DNA from: Gammaproteobacteria bacterium
GTDB taxonomy: Bacteria; Pseudomonadota; Gammaproteobacteria; Pseudomonadales; Azotimanducaceae
Length of the DNA: 64,000 bases
Assembly: GCA_012269545.1 (NCBI GenBank)
Contig: JAAXKB010000081.1
Span: forward strand, 1-64,000
Direction of reading: 5' to 3'
Below are positions 2,394 through 11,076 of this stretch, piece by piece. A program made the position numbers and the translations under genes. Positions within the stretch are counted from its first letter, which is position 1. Each line of letters starts with the position of its first letter. The notes under the pieces are model-generated. The model was not told where the DNA came from, searched no databases, and was given only the letters and a program-made list of their open reading frames with translations.

Positions 2394-3572
2394 TTACTCA
2401 GGCAAGCCCAAGACGCGCTTGGCGATAATGTTGGCTTGGATTTCGTTGCTGCCACCGTAAATCGTAGTCGCCTTGGTGTGCAGCCACTCTTCAACCGTGG
2501 TTAGCTCTAAGTCGCTGAAACCATCGCCACTAGCCCCAAGTCCTTGGAAGCCCATCAACTCTCGCTTTAGTTCGGCACCGTCCTGTTGCAGCGCTGCGCC
2601 GTAAAGTTTGAAAATCGAGGTCGCCGCGCCGGGGGTGCCGGATTTGTTTTCCGCGTTTGCGCGCTGGGCGGTCAAACGAAAAGATGCCCGATTCATGTTC
2701 AGGGTCGTTACTTTGTCGCGTATTGCAGGATCACTGATGCGGCCTGAATCTTCGCCCACGTATTTTTTTGCAATTTCCGGCAGGCTGCTACCCGCTTCCG
2801 TTGGTCGTGCGCCTCCTGAGAGGCCGCCAATGCCGGAACGCTCAAACTGCAGCAATCGCTTGCCCACCGTCCAGCCTCGGTTCAGTTCACCCACCAAGTC
2901 GTCTTTGGATGCGACGGCATTATCCAAAAACGTCTCGCAGAAAGGCGAAGAACCGGAAATCAATCGGATCGGCTTGACGGTTACGCCAGGTTGATCCATT
3001 GGCAGAAGAACGAAGCTGATGCCATCGTGTTTGGGTGCGTCGAAGTCAGTCCGCACCAAGGCGAACATCCAGTCCGCCGTGTAGGCGCCAGAGGTCCAGA
3101 TTTTTTGGCCGCTGAGCAAATAGTGATCGCCTTGATCTTCAGCTCGGGTATTCAAGGCGGCCAGATCGGAGCCAGCATTCGGTTCGGAATAACCCTGACA
3201 CCACTGCAGTTCGCCGCGGATGATTTTGGGTAGGTGTCGTTCCTTTTGCGCCTGAGTACCGTACTCCAGAAGGGTCGGTCCAATCATTGTCATGCCCATG
3301 CCGGTGAGCGGCGTGCGGGCGTTGGCCTTGCCCATCTCTTCATACAAGACTTTTGCCAAATCGGCAGATAAACCGCCGCCGCCGAACTCTGTTGGCCATG
3401 TGGGTGCGGTAAATCCTTTTTCGGAACAACGCTCAAGCCAGAGAGCGACGTCGGGTTCCAGCTCAATCTTGGTGCTGCCGTTGGCCATTTGGCCCGGTCC
3501 CATGGCACCCGCCGGGCAGTTCTCCGCAATCCATGCGCTGACGTCACGTCGAAATTCGGATACTTCGCTCAT
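2394..3572 (-). CDS. Acyl-CoA dehydrogenase
   Basis: FAD-dependent alpha,beta-dehydrogenation of an acyl-CoA thioester, passing electrons to ETF. The three-domain ACAD pattern is visible: N-terminal helical domain, the middle-domain signature QGYSEPNAGSDLAAL followed by GQKIWTSGA, and the C-terminal YGGSNEIQANIIAKRVLG element. Length (392 aa) is normal. The frame can be extended by four residues to a TTG, but the ATG at 3572 has GGGG/AGGA just upstream and is preferred. It resembles the ACADs of steroid, terpenoid or branched-chain degradation more than short-chain FadE types, but that is impressionistic. It is divergent from the thioredoxin-fusion gene; about 90 bp between them must hold both promoters. 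Confidence 0.92.
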   Translation of the reverse strand: MSEVSEFRRDVSAWIAENCPAGAMGPGQMANGSTKIELEPDVALWLERCSEKGFTAPTWPTEFGGGGLSADLAKVLYEEMGKANARTPLTGMGMTMIGPTLLEYGTQAQKERHLPKIIRGELQWCQGYSEPNAGSDLAALNTRAEDQGDHYLLSGQKIWTSGAYTADWMFALVRTDFDAPKHDGISFVLLPMDQPGVTVKPIRLISGSSPFCETFLDNAVASKDDLVGELNRGWTVGKRLLQFERSGIGGLSGGARPTEAGSSLPEIAKKYVGEDSGRISDPAIRDKVTTLNMNRASFRLTAQRANAENKSGTPGAATSIFKLYGAALQQDGAELKRELMGFQGLGASGDGFSDLELTTVEEWLHTKATTIYGGSNEIQANIIAKRVLGLPE

Positions 3573-3665
3573 TCCTATCCCCAAAAATTTTGTTCGCGTA
3601 GAGATTACTCGGTATAGACTGTGAAACTCAACACGCTGTTGTTCACGCTTAACTGGGAGGGATAT

Positions 3666-5243
3666 ATGGTTTCGCTACCGGCATATCAGCTTGAAAATTT
3701 AGATGGGGACAGAGTATCGAGCCCGGTAGCGGAGCGAGCACTCGTTTGCTTCATCAAAGAAGACTGCCCAACTTGTAAAGAAGTGATGCCAGTATTAGCG
3801 GCCTTCTACGGTCACTTCGCCCACGAGATGCCTGTGCACGTTATCGGCCAAAACGAATCAGGCAATAAGGCACTTGCTGCTCAGTTCAATCCAGAATTTT
3901 CGATCTTGGATGACAGTGCGCTCGAGGTGTCCTTTGCCGCGGAAATCGAAACTGTGCCAACCATGCTGATGCTGGATGCCTCAGGTGCAGAAACTGCGCG
4001 TCTGGTGGGCTTTGTTAAAGCGGAATGGCAGACGCTTGCTGCTGACTTGAGCGCGGATCAGGGCTTGCGAGAGCTGGCTTTGGACTGGTCCGCGCTGCCG
4101 GACTGGCGTCCCGGTTGTGGTTCGCTGTCCGTTGACCCCGCCAATGAACCTAGGCTGCGTGCGTTAGCGGAGGGTAGTCCAATCCGTGCGCGCCGCATTG
4201 AGATTGGCAGCCAAGACGATGAAGTGGAATTTATGTTCGATAAGGGCTTCTCCGACGGTCTGCCCTTAGTACCGCCAACCCCGGAGCGGGTATTGGCCAT
4301 GCTGTCTGGCACGAAGCGGGATGCCCAGGAAGTGCTGGGCGAAATGGCGCCCAACATGGGCGAAGTGACCATCGAAAAAGTAGCGATCAATGCGGTCATG
4401 GCCGGCTGCAAACCGGAATACTTACCCGTTGTACTGGCCGCTGTTGAAGCGATTTTAACGGACGATTACAACATCCACGGAGTAATGGCGACGACCATGG
4501 GAGCGAGTCCGGTCATTGTCGTGAACGGTCCCATCCGACACCGCATCGGCATGAACATGGGACTGGGGGCTCTGGGTCAAGGCAATCGCGCTAATGCCAC
4601 CATTGGCCGCGCTGTGCGTTTGGTTGTTCGGAATGTTGGTGGCGCCAGACCCGGCGAAACCGAACGCTCGACCCTCGGCAATCCGATGAAATTCACCATG
4701 TGCTTTGCAGAATGGGAAGAGCGCAATCCTTGGTCGCCGCTGCATGTTGAGCGCGGCTTCAACGAAGAAGATTCGGTAGTGACGGTGTTCACGATGAGCA
4801 GTGGTCCGACGTTGATTGTTGATCAAGACTCTCGCACTGGATCGCAGCTGGCGGGAACACTCGGACAAGGTCTGCAGTCGGTGATGAGTCCAAAGGCCTA
4901 CTCCGCCACGGACTGTCTGTTGGTCGTGGTGCCTGAGCATGTGGATACGTTCATGCGGGACAACTACAGCAAGGAAAATATTCGTCAGCGAATTCAGCAA
5001 GTCAGCGCCCGCCCTTTGCGTGAACTGGTGGCCGATGAAAATTCCGCAACAGGACTAAAGCAAGCATCAGCGGCGCAAATGGACGAGGCCAGCCTAAATA
5101 AGCTGATGACAAAGTTCCGACGGGACGAGGACATCCACATTGTCGTTGCCGGCGGCGAAGCAGGTAAATTTTCCGGCGCGTTTCACGGATGGGTAACGGG
5201 CAGTGTAGGCTCCATACCGGTATCGCGTAAGATCGGTCACTAG
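3666..5243 (+). CDS. Thioredoxin-fold protein fused to a conserved domain of unknown function; partner of the UGSC selenoprotein
   Basis: 525 residues. The N-terminal ~150 residues look like a thioredoxin/peroxiredoxin fold: a CPTC redox motif at 34-37 after ALVCFIKED and a probable cis-proline loop (TVPTMLML). From about residue 188 a second domain begins (FSDGLPLVPPTPERV, AINAVMAGCKPEYLP, NGPIRHRIGMNMG, NATIGRAVRL, GGARPGE, LHVERGF), with cysteines at 248, 346 and 417. I recall stand-alone homologues of this domain as conserved hypotheticals, but no established reaction. ATG 3666 is chosen over a TTG-like extension at 3621 because GGGAGG lies 5 nt upstream. The UGSC selenoprotein follows after 77 bp in the same direction. 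Inference: the thioredoxin domain reduces the Sec-containing partner or the joined domain. No signal peptide is seen, so cytoplasmic. Confidence 0.75.
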   Translation: MVSLPAYQLENLDGDRVSSPVAERALVCFIKEDCPTCKEVMPVLAAFYGHFAHEMPVHVIGQNESGNKALAAQFNPEFSILDDSALEVSFAAEIETVPTMLMLDASGAETARLVGFVKAEWQTLAADLSADQGLRELALDWSALPDWRPGCGSLSVDPANEPRLRALAEGSPIRARRIEIGSQDDEVEFMFDKGFSDGLPLVPPTPERVLAMLSGTKRDAQEVLGEMAPNMGEVTIEKVAINAVMAGCKPEYLPVVLAAVEAILTDDYNIHGVMATTMGASPVIVVNGPIRHRIGMNMGLGALGQGNRANATIGRAVRLVVRNVGGARPGETERSTLGNPMKFTMCFAEWEERNPWSPLHVERGFNEEDSVVTVFTMSSGPTLIVDQDSRTGSQLAGTLGQGLQSVMSPKAYSATDCLLVVVPEHVDTFMRDNYSKENIRQRIQQVSARPLRELVADENSATGLKQASAAQMDEASLNKLMTKFRRDEDIHIVVAGGEAGKFSGAFHGWVTGSVGSIPVSRKIGH

Positions 5244-5320
5244 ACTAGAACAATTGAACCACACCAGCGCCGCAGAAGATCCGCGGACGTTGCAAGCAAG
5301 TGAAAAGAGGAGACGAAGTT

Positions 5321-5839
5321 ATGACAACAATAATGGACCCCACAGACGAGCGGGTACCGGTCACCCGGCAACTCACGCCGCGGCCCGACACCATCTCCGG
5401 CAGAGTGGCGCTACTGGATATTTCCAAGCCACGCGGCAGTGTGCTGTTAGACCAGCTGGAAGAGGTATTGGGCAAGCAGTTGCCCGGTGTCACTCTGACT
5501 CGCTATGCCAAGCCAACTTTCTCCAGACCTGCGCCAGCAGCTCTGCGCGAAGAAATTCACCAAAACAATGACTTCGTCATTGAAGCGCTGGCTGACTGAG
5601 GCTCTTGTACCACGTGCAGTTTGCATGACACGGTATGGTTTGAGATTCAGGGAACACCTGCGGTATCCATCGCTTCTTCCGAGTTCGTGACTGCGGCAAC
5701 GGCTCAGGCAGATGCGCTTGGTATGCCCGACGCGCATCGCGTCTTTGTTCAGCACCCGATTCAGGATGCGACGGATGCAGAAATGCATGAAAAAGCGGAC
5801 GCCATCATAAGCGACGTGATACGTGCACTGACCGCTTAG
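5321..5839 (+). CDS. UGSC-family selenoprotein (in-frame UGA read as selenocysteine)
   Basis: Two open frames in the same phase are separated only by TGA at 5597-5599. Read through, they give one 172-residue protein with Sec93-Gly-Ser-Cys96-Thr-Thr-Cys99, the hallmark of the UGSC (seleno)protein family known from marine metagenome selenoprotein surveys. The N-terminal half (RVALLDISKPRGSVLLDQL, YAKPTFSRPAP) and the post-Sec half (SLHDTVWFEIQGTPAVSI, ALGMPDAHRVFV) both carry family-type sequence, so a nonsense mutation is unlikely. ATG 5321 has AGAGGAG 9 nt upstream; a GTG at 5300 is the alternative. A SECIS-like hairpin follows the UGA. The catalytic reaction is not known; the Sec/Cys pair suggests redox or reductive-cleavage chemistry. 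Conventional gene calling will truncate it at residue 92 or split it. Confidence 0.88.
5606..5637 (+). promoter_or_regulatory. Bacterial SECIS-like hairpin directly after the UGA
   Basis: The RNA just 3' of the UGA (5597-5599) can fold as an upper 6-bp stem CGTGCA (5613-5618) with TGCATG (5622-5627, one G-U) closed by a GTT loop, and a lower stem 5606-5611 with 5632-5637 (two G-U pairs) separated by a small asymmetric internal loop. The loop begins 20 nt after the UGA. As I recall, the E. coli fdhF SECIS has a UGCA/UGCA stem with a GGUC loop at nearly the same distance, so both stem sequence and placement match what SelB recognises. Confidence 0.7.
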
Positions 5840-5876
5840 TCCTGTACCCGCGTTAACGCGAGGTGTAAAACGCCCG

Positions 5877-5905
5877 GACTCTGCCACGCTTCGGCGTGCA
5901 AAGTC
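5877..5905 (+). terminator. Stem-loop between selenoprotein and MFS genes
   Basis: CACGC (5885-5889), a TTCG tetraloop and GCGTG (5894-5898) form a stable hairpin that can be lengthened with GACT/AGTC at the base. It lies 37 nt past the selenoprotein stop and 27 nt before the MFS start. No T-run follows, so it may only partly reduce read-through or protect the upstream mRNA. Confidence 0.35.
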
Positions 5906-5932
5906 TGGGTTCCCCCATTTGGGAATCTTCTT

Positions 5933-7219
5933 TTGTCAGACATCCAAACCCGTTACGCCGGGCCGATCTTTTACGGCTACTATCTCGTCGGTGCTGCCTT
6001 CATCGCGCAGTTTATTTCGACTGGGATGTACAGCTACGTGCTTGGTTCTTTCATGGAACCTATGACCACAGAGCTGGACTGGAGCCGTGCAGATTTCACC
6101 CTCACTCGAACCATCGGTCAAATGGTGATGGCCTTCGTGGGAATCTTTATCGGATCTCGTGTCGATATCTACGGCGGAAGACCGATTATGCTCTGTGGCA
6201 GCATTCTGCTGGGTCTAATGCTGGCATTGACCAGTCAGGTGGAAACCCTATACCAATGGCTTATCTTGAACGGTGTGATGGTGACCATAGGCTGTGCCAT
6301 GCTCGGCAACTTGGTGGTGAATGTCACGCTGTCCAAGTGGTTTGTGGAACGGCGCGGCATCGTCATTTCTATTGCTGCCATGGGGGTTTCCTTTGGTGGT
6401 GTGGTACTCACTCCCTTGGCCACATGGCTGGTGGACACCATTGGTTGGCGCGACGCTTGGGTCTGGCTAGGCGTTGCTGCGACTACGTTGACGTTGCCGC
6501 TGGCGCTCATCATGCGCCGTGCACCAGAGGATCACGGTCTTCATCCAGATGGTTTTTCCGCAGAGCAAATTGCGCAAGGTCGTGGCGAGCGTGCGCGCTT
6601 GGAATTGGCTGCTTCCTTTAGTAGAAGAGAGGCGGTAAGAACCTTCTCGTTTTATGCCTTGGTAATCGCCTTCGGCTTTTTTTCCATAAACATTTTTGTT
6701 TTGCTCATTCATACGGTGCCTCTCCTCTCCGATGCCGGACTCACGCGTAACGAGGCTTCTTTTGCAATGCTAGTGGCCTCTGTTCCGGCGATGATCAGCA
6801 AGCCAGTTTGGGGTTATTGGATCGACCGCACGCCGCCGAAGCCCCTGGCGGCGGTGTCTGCGGCGGTGACGGGAGTCGCGTTGTTTTTGATCGTCTACGC
6901 TGCGGCGTCAAGCAGCCTGTTTTGGATCTATGCAGCCTACGCGGTACTGGGTTTGGGCTGGGGCGGCATGATCCCCATGCAGGAAGTGATCTGGGCATCG
7001 TTTTTTGGGCGCCGCTTTCTGGGTGCGATTCGCGGTGCCGCCATGCCCTATGCTTTGGCCTTAAGCGCCTTAGCACCTTGGTTGGTATCAATTTACCGAG
7101 ATACAATGGGAAGCTATGACGGGGCGTTGCTGATTGTGGCGACATTAAATGTCTTGTCTGGCGTGCTGATATTTTTTGCTCCGCCACCGAAAAAAAAGCA
7201 GCAAACATCGATTGAATGA
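5933..7219 (+). CDS. MFS transporter (monocarboxylate/oxalate-formate antiporter-like)
   Basis: 428 residues with about twelve membrane helices, a long cytoplasmic loop near residues 190-230 and a basic tail ending PPPKKKQQTSIE. Conserved MFS loop features appear after helix 2 (GSRVDIYGGRP) and in the second half (KPVWGYWIDRTPPKP). The opening YYLVGAAFIAQFISTG resembles the oxalate/formate antiporter and monocarboxylate porter branch. The start is a TTG at 5933 with GGGAA about 8 nt upstream; the next Met would remove the first helix. It lies 93 bp after the selenoprotein and 46 bp before the dioxygenase, so it may carry the substrate of this locus. Substrate is inferred only as a small organic anion. 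Confidence 0.9.
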   Translation: MSDIQTRYAGPIFYGYYLVGAAFIAQFISTGMYSYVLGSFMEPMTTELDWSRADFTLTRTIGQMVMAFVGIFIGSRVDIYGGRPIMLCGSILLGLMLALTSQVETLYQWLILNGVMVTIGCAMLGNLVVNVTLSKWFVERRGIVISIAAMGVSFGGVVLTPLATWLVDTIGWRDAWVWLGVAATTLTLPLALIMRRAPEDHGLHPDGFSAEQIAQGRGERARLELAASFSRREAVRTFSFYALVIAFGFFSINIFVLLIHTVPLLSDAGLTRNEASFAMLVASVPAMISKPVWGYWIDRTPPKPLAAVSAAVTGVALFLIVYAAASSSLFWIYAAYAVLGLGWGGMIPMQEVIWASFFGRRFLGAIRGAAMPYALALSALAPWLVSIYRDTMGSYDGALLIVATLNVLSGVLIFFAPPPKKKQQTSIE

Positions 7220-7265
7220 AATCATTGCTGTCGAGTAAGCCAGCAAAGAACAGGGGAACAGTTGT

Positions 7266-8105
7266 ATGAGCGGTGATTTGAAGATAACAAGCAAGGGCGC
7301 GCTGGGCGCATTGGTTGAGGGGGTAGATCTCACTCAAGTAACCCCTGAGCAAATGGGTGCGCTAGAGCAAGCCTTTGCGCAGCATGAAGTGCTGTTTTTT
7401 GAAAACCAGAGTCTCGCACCCGAAGCGCATCTTGCCTTTGCTGAGCGTTGGGGGGAGATCAATGTGAATCGCTTTTTCGCTCACGTAGAGGGCCACCCGG
7501 CCATCGCTCAGGTGGTGAAAGAGCCCGAGCAGCAAGGCAACATTGGCGGTTACTGGCATACGGACCATTCCTACGATCAAGTGCCCGCACTGGGGTCTAT
7601 GCTGTTAGCCAGAGAAGTGCCGCCAACGGGAGGCGATACTTTGTTCGCCTCTTGCACTCGGGCGTTTTCCACGTTGTCTGAGGGTATGCAGCAGATGCTT
7701 CTGACGTTGAGGGCCGTGCACTCATCCCGCCATGTGTTCGGAGCACAAGCCGAATACATGGATGCGATGGAGGGACGTTTGGGTAATGCAGAGGCGGCGA
7801 CTCAAGATGCGGTGCACCCAGTGGTTATTCGTCATCCGTTGTCCGGTAGACCGTCTCTGTATGTTAACCCCGGATTCACGCTGCGTTTCGACGGGTGGAC
7901 GGACAAAGAGTCTGCCCCCTTGCTCGACTTTTTATACCAACACATCGGACGCGCCGAGCACAGCATTCGGTACGAATGGAGTGAAGGCGCGCTGGCATTT
8001 TGGGACAACCGGGCAACGTGGCACTGGGCGGTCAACGACTATCAAGGCAGCCGCCGAGAGATGCACCGAGTCACCATTGAGGGTGTGGAACTCGGCGCAG
8101 CGTAA
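7266..8105 (+). CDS. TauD/TfdA-family Fe(II)/2-oxoglutarate dioxygenase
   Basis: 279 residues, the usual size for TauD/TfdA. The iron ligands are visible as His98-x-Asp100 (GGYWHTDHSY) and His253 (RATWHWAVNDY); Arg268, 15 residues on, matches the TauD 2-oxoglutarate-binding Arg spacing. These enzymes hydroxylate the carbon next to a sulfonate, ether or similar group so that it falls apart, using O2 and 2-oxoglutarate. AGGGGA precedes the ATG. It is the last gene of the + strand run starting with the thioredoxin fusion; its stop is 22 bp from the convergent epoxide hydrolase. The substrate cannot be deduced. Confidence 0.92.
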   Translation: MSGDLKITSKGALGALVEGVDLTQVTPEQMGALEQAFAQHEVLFFENQSLAPEAHLAFAERWGEINVNRFFAHVEGHPAIAQVVKEPEQQGNIGGYWHTDHSYDQVPALGSMLLAREVPPTGGDTLFASCTRAFSTLSEGMQQMLLTLRAVHSSRHVFGAQAEYMDAMEGRLGNAEAATQDAVHPVVIRHPLSGRPSLYVNPGFTLRFDGWTDKESAPLLDFLYQHIGRAEHSIRYEWSEGALAFWDNRATWHWAVNDYQGSRREMHRVTIEGVELGAA

Positions 8106-9301: not shown

Positions 9302-10075
9302 TTAAAGCGAGGCGCAGATATGGCCGCCATCGACAACCAGTACTGATCCAGTCATGTAGCGCGAGGCGTCACTGGCCAACAGTAATAGCGGCCCGTCGAG
9401 GTCTGGGAATTCACCTACCCGACGCATGGGGATGCCTTTGACGAAATTTTCACTCATCGGGGATTCCAGCAAGATACGGCTGACGTCAGTAAGAAAATAG
9501 CCGGGTGCCAGAGCGTTTACTCGGATGTTGTATTTCGCTGCCTCTAACGACATAACCTCGGTCATGCGGGTCATGCCGCCCTTGGATACAGCGTAAGGGA
9601 ACTGACCCTTGATGGTGCGGGAGTCCGTAATACTGGAAATCATTATGATGTTGCCGCCGTCTTGTTTATGGGCAACCACCCGATCGGTGTAGAGCTTAGA
9701 AACCAGCCATGCAGACTTAAGGTTGGTGTCTAAAACAAAGTCCCAATCATCTTCATCAATGGTGTGATAGGTTTTGGCACCGGCTTCCACGCCCGCATTG
9801 TTTATAACGCAATCCAGTCGACCATAGTGGTCGTATGCGGCATCCAGAAAATTCCCGATGGTTTCTTTGTCGCGAACATCCAAGGTCACGGCCAATGCTT
9901 CACCCCCGTTCGCTGTGATTTCGTCGACTCGCTCTGTCAGCTTGTCGGTGCGCCGAGCGCCGAGTATTACTTTGGCGCCTGCACTGGCCAGCACGCCGGC
10001 AAAGTGGTGGCCAAAGCCTGATGATGCGCCAGTAATGGCAACGACGTGCCCATTCAGATTAAACGGTTGTTGCAT
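9302..10075 (-). CDS. SDR family oxidoreductase
   Basis: Classical short-chain dehydrogenase of 257 aa: dinucleotide motif TGASSGFG at 15-22, NNAG at 92-95, catalytic Ser148 and Tyr161-x3-Lys165 (YAVSK). The acidic/basic residues after beta-2 (ARRTDK) suggest NADP(H). It oxidises an alcohol or reduces a ketone. A GAGGGA site precedes the ATG. It is the first gene of a two-gene unit with the epoxide hydrolase and is divergent from the CitE-like gene across 125 bp that should hold both promoters. Confidence 0.93.
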   Translation of the reverse strand: MQQPFNLNGHVVAITGASSGFGHHFAGVLASAGAKVILGARRTDKLTERVDEITANGGEALAVTLDVRDKETIGNFLDAAYDHYGRLDCVINNAGVEAGAKTYHTIDEDDWDFVLDTNLKSAWLVSKLYTDRVVAHKQDGGNIIMISSITDSRTIKGQFPYAVSKGGMTRMTEVMSLEAAKYNIRVNALAPGYFLTDVSRILLESPMSENFVKGIPMRRVGEFPDLDGPLLLLASDASRYMTGSVLVVDGGHICASL

Positions 10076-10200
10076 GTCATGATTCCCTCTGTGAAGACTC
10101 TTGCCGGCGCAAGCGCGCGGATTAAAGTTTTGATGCTAATGCAAAATAGACGTTAGCGTGGCACTTTAGTGAGAGCGTACACACCCTAAGGAAAGGATTC

Positions 10201-11076
10201 ATGACTGCTCAAGCGTCCATCGTGCCCCGTCGCTCGCTGCTTTATATGCCCGGCGCGAATCCTCGCGCGATGAAAAAAGCGCAGTCTTTGGACTGTGACA
10301 CCATTATTTTCGATCTTGAGGATGCAGTGGCTGCCAGCGCCAAAACGCTGGCTCGTTCTCAGGTGCTTGCTGCGCTAGAGCAAAACGCCTACGGGCATCG
10401 CGAGCTGGTGGTCCGATGTAATGGCTTAGATACGCCATGGGGGATGGACGACTTACGCTGTTTTGCAAACGCGCCCATCGGGGCGCTGCTGTTCCCAAAA
10501 ATCGAAAGCGCAGAGCAGATCACCGAGATAAAGGATGCATTGGCAAGCCACGGATCTGCATTGCCGCTGTGGATCATGATTGAGACGCCGACCGCCGTTA
10601 TGGATTTGCCGCGCTTTGCGGGCGACCCTCAGATTACGGGCATAGTCATGGGGACCAGTGATTTGGTGAAGGAACTGCGCGCTCAGCATACGCCCTCGCG
10701 CGATAATCTCGCCTATGCACTGCAGCGTTGTGTCCTCGTTGCCCGGCACCTGAGAAAAGACATTTTCGATGGCGTGCATCTAGACTTTCGCAATCTGGAC
10801 AGCTTGCGCGAGGCCTGTGAAGCGGGCCGGACAATTGGCTTCGACGGCAAAACACTGATACATCCTGGCCAAGTTCAGGTCGCCAACGAGGTGTTTGGTT
10901 ACAGTGCGGCTGACGTCGCTAAAGCGAAGGCGATTTTGTCAGCATGGCAGGAAGCGTTACTGCAGGGTCAGGGCGTTGCCGAGTTGGACGGTCAGTTGAT
11001 TGAAAACTTGCATGCGGAAGAAGCGGAGCGTGTCGTAACCTTTGCTCAGGCACTTGCCCAACGACAGAAGGCATAA
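10201..11076 (+). CDS. HpcH/HpaI aldolase / CitE-like CoA ester lyase
   Basis: 291 residues with the CitE-like TIM-barrel hallmarks: RRSLLYMPGANP at the start, FDLEDAVA (37-44), VVRCNG (70-75), LLFPKIES (97-103) and GFDGKTLIHPGQV near residue 220. The family cleaves or hydrolyses CoA esters such as citramalyl-CoA, malyl-CoA or 3-hydroxyacyl-CoA using Mg2+. It is a stand-alone protein without citrate lyase alpha/gamma subunits nearby, so not citrate lyase. AAGGA precedes the ATG. The alpha/beta hydrolase follows after 12 bp and is almost certainly co-transcribed. Confidence 0.9.
   Translation: MTAQASIVPRRSLLYMPGANPRAMKKAQSLDCDTIIFDLEDAVAASAKTLARSQVLAALEQNAYGHRELVVRCNGLDTPWGMDDLRCFANAPIGALLFPKIESAEQITEIKDALASHGSALPLWIMIETPTAVMDLPRFAGDPQITGIVMGTSDLVKELRAQHTPSRDNLAYALQRCVLVARHLRKDIFDGVHLDFRNLDSLREACEAGRTIGFDGKTLIHPGQVQVANEVFGYSAADVAKAKAILSAWQEALLQGQGVAELDGQLIENLHAEEAERVVTFAQALAQRQKA

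Follow-up and report, generated by a model that had tools for sequence, protein, structure and literature searches.

A UGSC-family gene with a probable UGA-encoded selenocysteine and its constantly adjoining partner gene in a gammaproteobacterial genome

The window, i.e., the complete stretch of 64,000 nucleotides that was analyzed, contains a gene of the UGSC family with an in-frame TGA at codon 93. It is very probable that this UGA is recoded to selenocysteine (Sec) and that the protein forms a functional pair with the product of the adjacent partner gene. Sec recoding is concluded because the genome encodes the Sec machinery, the sequence downstream of the TGA is conserved, and the synonymous diversity collapses at a hairpin directly after it. 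The joint function is suggested by the constant pairing of the two genes, by one arrangement in a single frame, and by their joint presence or absence. The features of the region are as follows:

3621-5243, + strand: thioredoxin-partner fusion gene, 540 amino acids from the listed GTG, directly upstream of the UGSC gene
3765-3776, + strand: CPTC redox motif, residues 49-52 of the thioredoxin-like domain (sequence and predicted model)
4101-5234, + strand: partner domain, a family of about 350 residues with no Pfam or NCBIfam model (profile searches)
5321-5839, + strand: UGSC selenoprotein gene (probable), 172 residues, type A (LAD-U-GSCTTCSLHD), ATG at 5321, TAG at 5837-5839
5597-5599, + strand: probable selenocysteine codon 93, an in-frame TGA; TGA in 112/112 tblastn-matched loci, TGC in the Cys homologue of a genome with no SelA match
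5603-5635, + strand: collapsed synonymous diversity at codons 95-105, indicating an overlapping signal for Sec insertion (bSECIS)
5613-5627, + strand: putative bSECIS-type stem-loop, hairpin CGUGCA-GUU-UGCAUG, +16 to +30 (T of the TGA = 0)
5933-7219, + strand: MFS transporter gene downstream of the UGSC gene, adjacent to it in some relatives only

The program-made list of open reading frames splits the UGSC gene into two in-phase pieces, 5300-5599 and 5621-5839. Read-through translation of 5321-5839 revealed a single protein of 172 residues with the motif U93-G-S-C96. The initial annotation had described two in-phase frames joined by one TGA that yields Sec93-Gly-Ser-Cys, and this was confirmed, because the TGA at 5597-5599 is indeed codon 93 and there is no frameshift. 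The calculated mass is 18.66 kDa for the full-length protein versus 10.19 kDa for a product terminated at the TGA, and the sequence evidence supports the view that an 18.7-kDa UGSC selenoprotein would be made from one gene that is read through the UGA. Two in-phase open frames were rejected as evidence by themselves: the six frames of the window contain 16 stops that have open stretches of no less than 92 and 79 codons on their two sides (5 TGA, 6 TAA, 5 TAG, codon 93 included), and thus 15 other stops are equally long-flanked. In addition, 79 random codons of the same composition stay open with p = 0.04. The recoding call stands above the chance level because of the homology across the TGA, not because of the openness of the frames. 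A frame that is split by a single TGA, with an openness that alone is within chance, would also be found in a pseudogene or after a sequencing error, i.e., in a normal gene for a Cys form that had acquired a nonsense mutation.

Homology extends over the whole protein. The read-through protein matched the Pfam family UGSC (PF24696) with 166.2 bits at a cut-off of 25 (E = 1e-48, profile positions 1-171 of 172), and the NCBIfam model NF041046, 'UGSC family (seleno)protein', with 159.6 bits at a cut-off of 125 (4-147 of 147). The initial annotation had seen the family pattern on both sides of the TGA, in agreement with these matches. The U/C-G-S-C motif was invariant in 29 UGSC sequences chosen for diversity and in 72 close ones, and is absent from one diverged copy. 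The window protein is a typical member, with the full-length match over the cut-off, the U-G-S-C motif and the Sec machinery in its genome, and no difference of the protein from the family was found. The family was described in 2008 from marine metagenomes, with 255 Sec and 21 Cys forms, as 'UGSC-containing protein' (PMC2398784). The gene is thus a new member of an already known selenoprotein family, and this kind of recoding has been known at least since 2008. The earlier view that the gene is hidden and would be truncated by automatic annotation is only partly true, since the family is known and has an NCBIfam model of its own. Among the best 80 of 203 loci, the closest relatives of the gene belong to uncultured Gammaproteobacteria, including the K189A clade and HTCC2089 bins. 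The types A, B and C of UGSC are labels of this analysis, type C being the rest class.

The residues U93, C96, D103, F122 and H145-P146 were invariant across the alignment of the 29 sequences. They bear on the idea of a regulated termination, in which the main product has 92 residues and Sec read-through is restricted to conditions of ample selenium, making the gene a selenium sensor. At any UGA two products are conceivable, but the truncated piece would lack all of these invariant residues, and this explanation is regarded as very improbable.

The TGA itself is highly conserved. It was present at the Sec codon in all of the 112 tblastn-matched loci (80 best-of-203 and 32 further ones), which are not independent, as some genomes are included twice and the gene of the window is both L001 and L033. 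In 97 relatives, one TGA was found inside 117 of 121 UGSC family matches; the four TGA-less matches were two pieces too short to reach the codon, one match below the cut-off, and one diverged copy. The window gene was compared with 11 of the best 80 loci, and for the four closest relatives the dN/dS values were 0.039-0.082 after the TGA and 0.035-0.045 before it. Homologues without downstream conservation would have spoken against the initial annotation; the part after the stop turned out to be conserved.

The presence of selA, selB, selC and selD elsewhere in the genome had been named as a further check, and all four were found in the source genome (2.85 Mb, 99% complete). The tRNA-Sec (72.4 bits, anticodon TCA), SelA (518.1 bits), SelB (406.5 bits) and SelD (260.1 bits, inside a longer frame) were each over the curated cut-off, and selA, selB and the tRNA-Sec gene are grouped on contig C50. 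SelD occupies the C-terminal end of a frame of 735 residues (L184 638-2845, contig C34), which may be an Ndh-SelD fusion; such fusions are mentioned in PMC2398784. Cys forms of UGSC were compared with the Sec machinery in four genomes, in which SelA alone was searched. The Cys homologue L187 has TGC at the Sec codon, and its genome G233 is without a SelA match. Genome G367, with a Cys form that has a broken frame, yielded a SelA match of 19 bits, far below the cut-off, and SelA was present in the two Sec-form genomes G230 and G401. The Cys form of G367 (L189, G367:C6:12789-13246) is split over two frames, has a TGA in place of the Trp found in type-B relatives, and looks degraded.

The region directly after the UGA showed two signs of a Sec-insertion signal. 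First, the synonymous diversity was 0.05-0.09 in runs of nine codons starting at codons 95-98, compared with a mean of 0.56 outside codons 98-107. The values were calculated from 65 of the best 80 loci, which are of full length, have no indels and have the stop at codon 93. Second, the hairpin pairs are kept. They were compared in 59 distinct sequences, with identical ones merged and the diverged copy without the UGSC motif (L142) left out. In the 44 distinct type-A sequences, five of the six pairs were kept in 44/44 and the sixth in 43/44. Two of the seven type-C sequences (L133 and L141) have a G-C instead of the C-G pair at +20/+26; the amino acids also differ there, and the two may share one event. 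The eight type-B sequences, which are identical over the stem, pair in a different register, and two of the six pairs are lost in the Cys homologue L187. A fold of 44 nt after the UGA was no more stable than shuffles (z = 0.24), the stability of the 20-nt hairpin was equalled by 63 of 2000 shuffles, and Rfam gave nothing at the gathering score in the 64-kb window. At the level of the sequence, the synonymous constraint and the kept pairs indicate a bSECIS-type hairpin right after the UGA.

Taken together, the TGA in 112/112 loci, the purifying selection after it in the four closest pairs, the synonymous constraint with the hairpin, and the presence of tRNA-Sec, SelA, SelB and SelD all argue against a pseudogene or a sequencing error, the probability of which is regarded as negligible. 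The initial annotation had called recoding and not a pseudogene, and this call is upheld.

The constant partner gene just upstream of the UGSC gene was absent from the initial annotation. It encodes a protein with an N-terminal thioredoxin-like domain and the partner domain. Residues 1-16 have a pLDDT below 50 in the predicted model, and translation may therefore start later, at ATG 3666 (Met16). The Pfam thioredoxin matches of the N-terminus were below their cut-offs, and the thioredoxin-like assignment is based on the match of the predicted model to structures of the ResA/StoA type; the 50 Foldseek matches listed for the fusion were all thioredoxin-like or peroxiredoxin entries. The domain thus resembles the TlpA/ResA/StoA reductases in its predicted fold, but differs from them in being fused to a partner domain. 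The partner family has many invariant residues in 24 diverse sequences, among them Cys263 and Cys361 (numbering of the fusion), which also show a conservation of 90% or more in 65 close sequences. Searches of the partner alignment members against Pfam gave chance-level matches only, and no glycine-reductase family was among them. A sequence search of solved structures yielded nothing significant, the best E values being 0.8 for UGSC, 0.59 for the partner and 0.51 for the GrdB/PrdB-like set described below.

The partner adjoins the UGSC gene in 80/80 of the best 80 of 203 loci. A thioredoxin domain was matched in 74 of these, and the remaining six are truncated at the locus start. When 398 genomes of the phylum were drawn, the UGSC profile and the partner profile hit the same five (hypergeometric 1.2e-11, with shared descent ignored). 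Among the 97 relatives, UGSC was found in 59 and the partner in 60, the extra one being a fragment near a contig end. In the same relatives, the partner lay within 1 kb of 116/121 UGSC matches, and the five others comprise four partial or weak matches and one without the Sec motif. Conversely, UGSC lay within 1 kb of 116/125 partner matches, and several of the nine others are fragments. In one locus (L133) UGSC and partner are encoded in one frame with a single UGA. In other types, the two genes stand in either order (UGSC-partner or partner-UGSC) with no thioredoxin match, or on opposite strands. A UGSC protein fused to a domain called 'Unknown_1' was reported in PMC2398784, and this domain may be the same partner. 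Apart from that fusion, the partner is otherwise undescribed in the passages on UGSC of the literature, and the constant pairing seems to be a new setting for the family.

Two tandem partner domains lie beside one UGSC gene in L141 (1206-3084) and L188 (551-2520). The diverged copy L142 (G041:C111:9475-9957) is nearly complete, has SECS in place of UGSC, and there is no partner match on its contig. The source genome has a second UGSC gene, which lay beyond the sequence of the initial annotation (C7:9383-9850; L002, L152 6420-6848); it is of type B (GH-U-GSCTTGTVRD), and downstream of it lie a separate partner gene that lacks the thioredoxin part and, next, a fumarase-like gene, which was named by eye. 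In G401:C31, UGSC and partner (5009-6623) lie about 3 kb from selA (9337-10689), and therefore the module may travel with selenium genes. In viral contigs, no relative of UGSC or of the partner was confirmed by tblastn.

The other neighbors are less constant. In the best 80 of 203 loci, the MFS gene directly adjoins UGSC in 23/69 and TauD is nearby in 24/68 loci with room. The MFS transporter is probably outside the UGSC-partner module, because it is next to UGSC in some relatives only. In 17 further loci of several types, the partner was the only general neighbor cluster, and the largest other cluster was found in 8/17, at varying places. A prediction of the function from the neighboring genes was rejected, because the neighbors, including MFS and TauD, name no substrate. 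A scan of positions 3500-7300 for sigma-70-type promoters gave no site versus 2.2 expected.

The AlphaFold2 model of UGSC (pLDDT 85.7, pTM 0.82) has alternating strands and helices, with Sec93 after the strand 85-89 and before the helix 96-109. Of the 50 Foldseek matches listed, 32 were flavodoxin-like redox proteins. Most of these are azoreductases, and the others are flavodoxins, flavodiiron proteins and FMN reductase; the azoreductases include three chains that carry the title ACP phosphodiesterase, which we take to be azoreductases. The other 18 matches were unrelated, e.g., GTPases, glycosidases and TIR domains, and the TM-scores by query length were 0.32 to 0.53. The predicted fold is thus flavodoxin-like alpha/beta. 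In the model, D103, F122 and H145-P146 lie either within the helix that follows Sec93 or immediately behind the strands that come next, and they could line one site. A thioredoxin fold, the guess of PMC2398784, was rejected on the basis of this model, and 0/50 of the listed matches were titled thioredoxin. For the structure alignments 72 UGSC and 65 partner rows were used.

The fold also bears on the possibility that UGSC is an ordinary thiol-disulfide or peroxide reductase and the partner its protein substrate or target, in which case no C-N or C-X cleavage of a small substrate would occur. The UxxC motif is common among redox selenoproteins (PMC2398784), and a partner that carries a thioredoxin-like domain with CPTC would fit as well. 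The predicted flavodoxin-like fold and the many invariant, enzyme-like residues of the partner argue against it, and this explanation is considered rather unlikely.

GrdB and PrdB (PF07355), the Sec subunits of glycine and D-proline reductase, were chosen for comparison. They resemble UGSC in having UxxC followed by an E-x-x-G stretch; the difference is that UGSC has no PF07355 match and that only 62 columns align. The profile comparison (hhalign) was based on 29 UGSC sequences and 24 GrdB/PrdB-like sequences, hand-chosen for diversity, the latter being proteins of the same genus with a UPxC that is likewise encoded with UGA. It placed Sec on Sec and Cys on Cys with a score of 30.3 and a probability of 27%; shuffling the columns 150 times gave at most 20.3, and shuffling blocks 60 times at most 25.0. 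PF07355 was listed by 0/29 UGSC members at a limit of E = 10, with filters that drop most weak matches. GrdB and PrdB are accompanied by a pyruvoyl-type partner subunit, GrdE/PrdA (PMC10298544).

Based on these results, the following mechanism can be proposed. The UGA would be read as selenocysteine by the standard bacterial machinery together with the hairpin just after it, and UGSC would work jointly with the adjacent partner protein, which would bind a small substrate. The selenolate of Sec93, located where a beta strand leads into a helix, like the UxxC region of the GrdB/PrdB-like proteins, would attack the substrate reductively, and Cys96 would resolve the product as a selenenylsulfide. 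In the type of the window, the partner's fused thioredoxin-like domain, with its CPTC motif, would return the selenenylsulfide to the selenol, while a general thioredoxin would be the reductant in types without the fused domain. For a reductase mechanism with a GrdB/PrdB-like Sec site the arguments are nearly balanced, leaning slightly against it. The wider proposal is more speculative, namely that UGSC and partner are two subunits of an unrecognized class of selenium-dependent reductases. This class would be remotely related to the Sec-bearing subunits of the glycine and D-proline reductases, would use a substrate-binding subunit of a new kind and would occur in several families of the phylum; in the lineage of the window, the thioredoxin that recharges the enzyme would be built into the substrate subunit.

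In aquatic metagenomes, UGSC is one of the major selenoprotein families, with the 255 Sec forms mentioned above (PMC2398784), and according to a review from 2026 the functions of nearly all such selenoprotein families are largely uncharacterized (PMC13188914). The constant partner and the built-in thioredoxin turn a family of 'function unknown' into a testable two-protein enzyme.

The source genome also contains four GrdB/PrdB-like genes (PF07355; L193-L196) on contigs C18, C30 (twice) and C43, with a UGA in U-P-x-C. They share with the UGSC genes the UGA-encoded UxxC and the genome, and differ in having UPxC versus UGSC and in lying on contigs other than those of the two partner genes. If the GrdB/PrdB-like link is true, the reductive selenium chemistry of these bacteria would be wider than their annotation shows. 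The PF07355 matches of all four genes end just before the UGA, and therefore a gene caller that stops at the UGA would truncate them.
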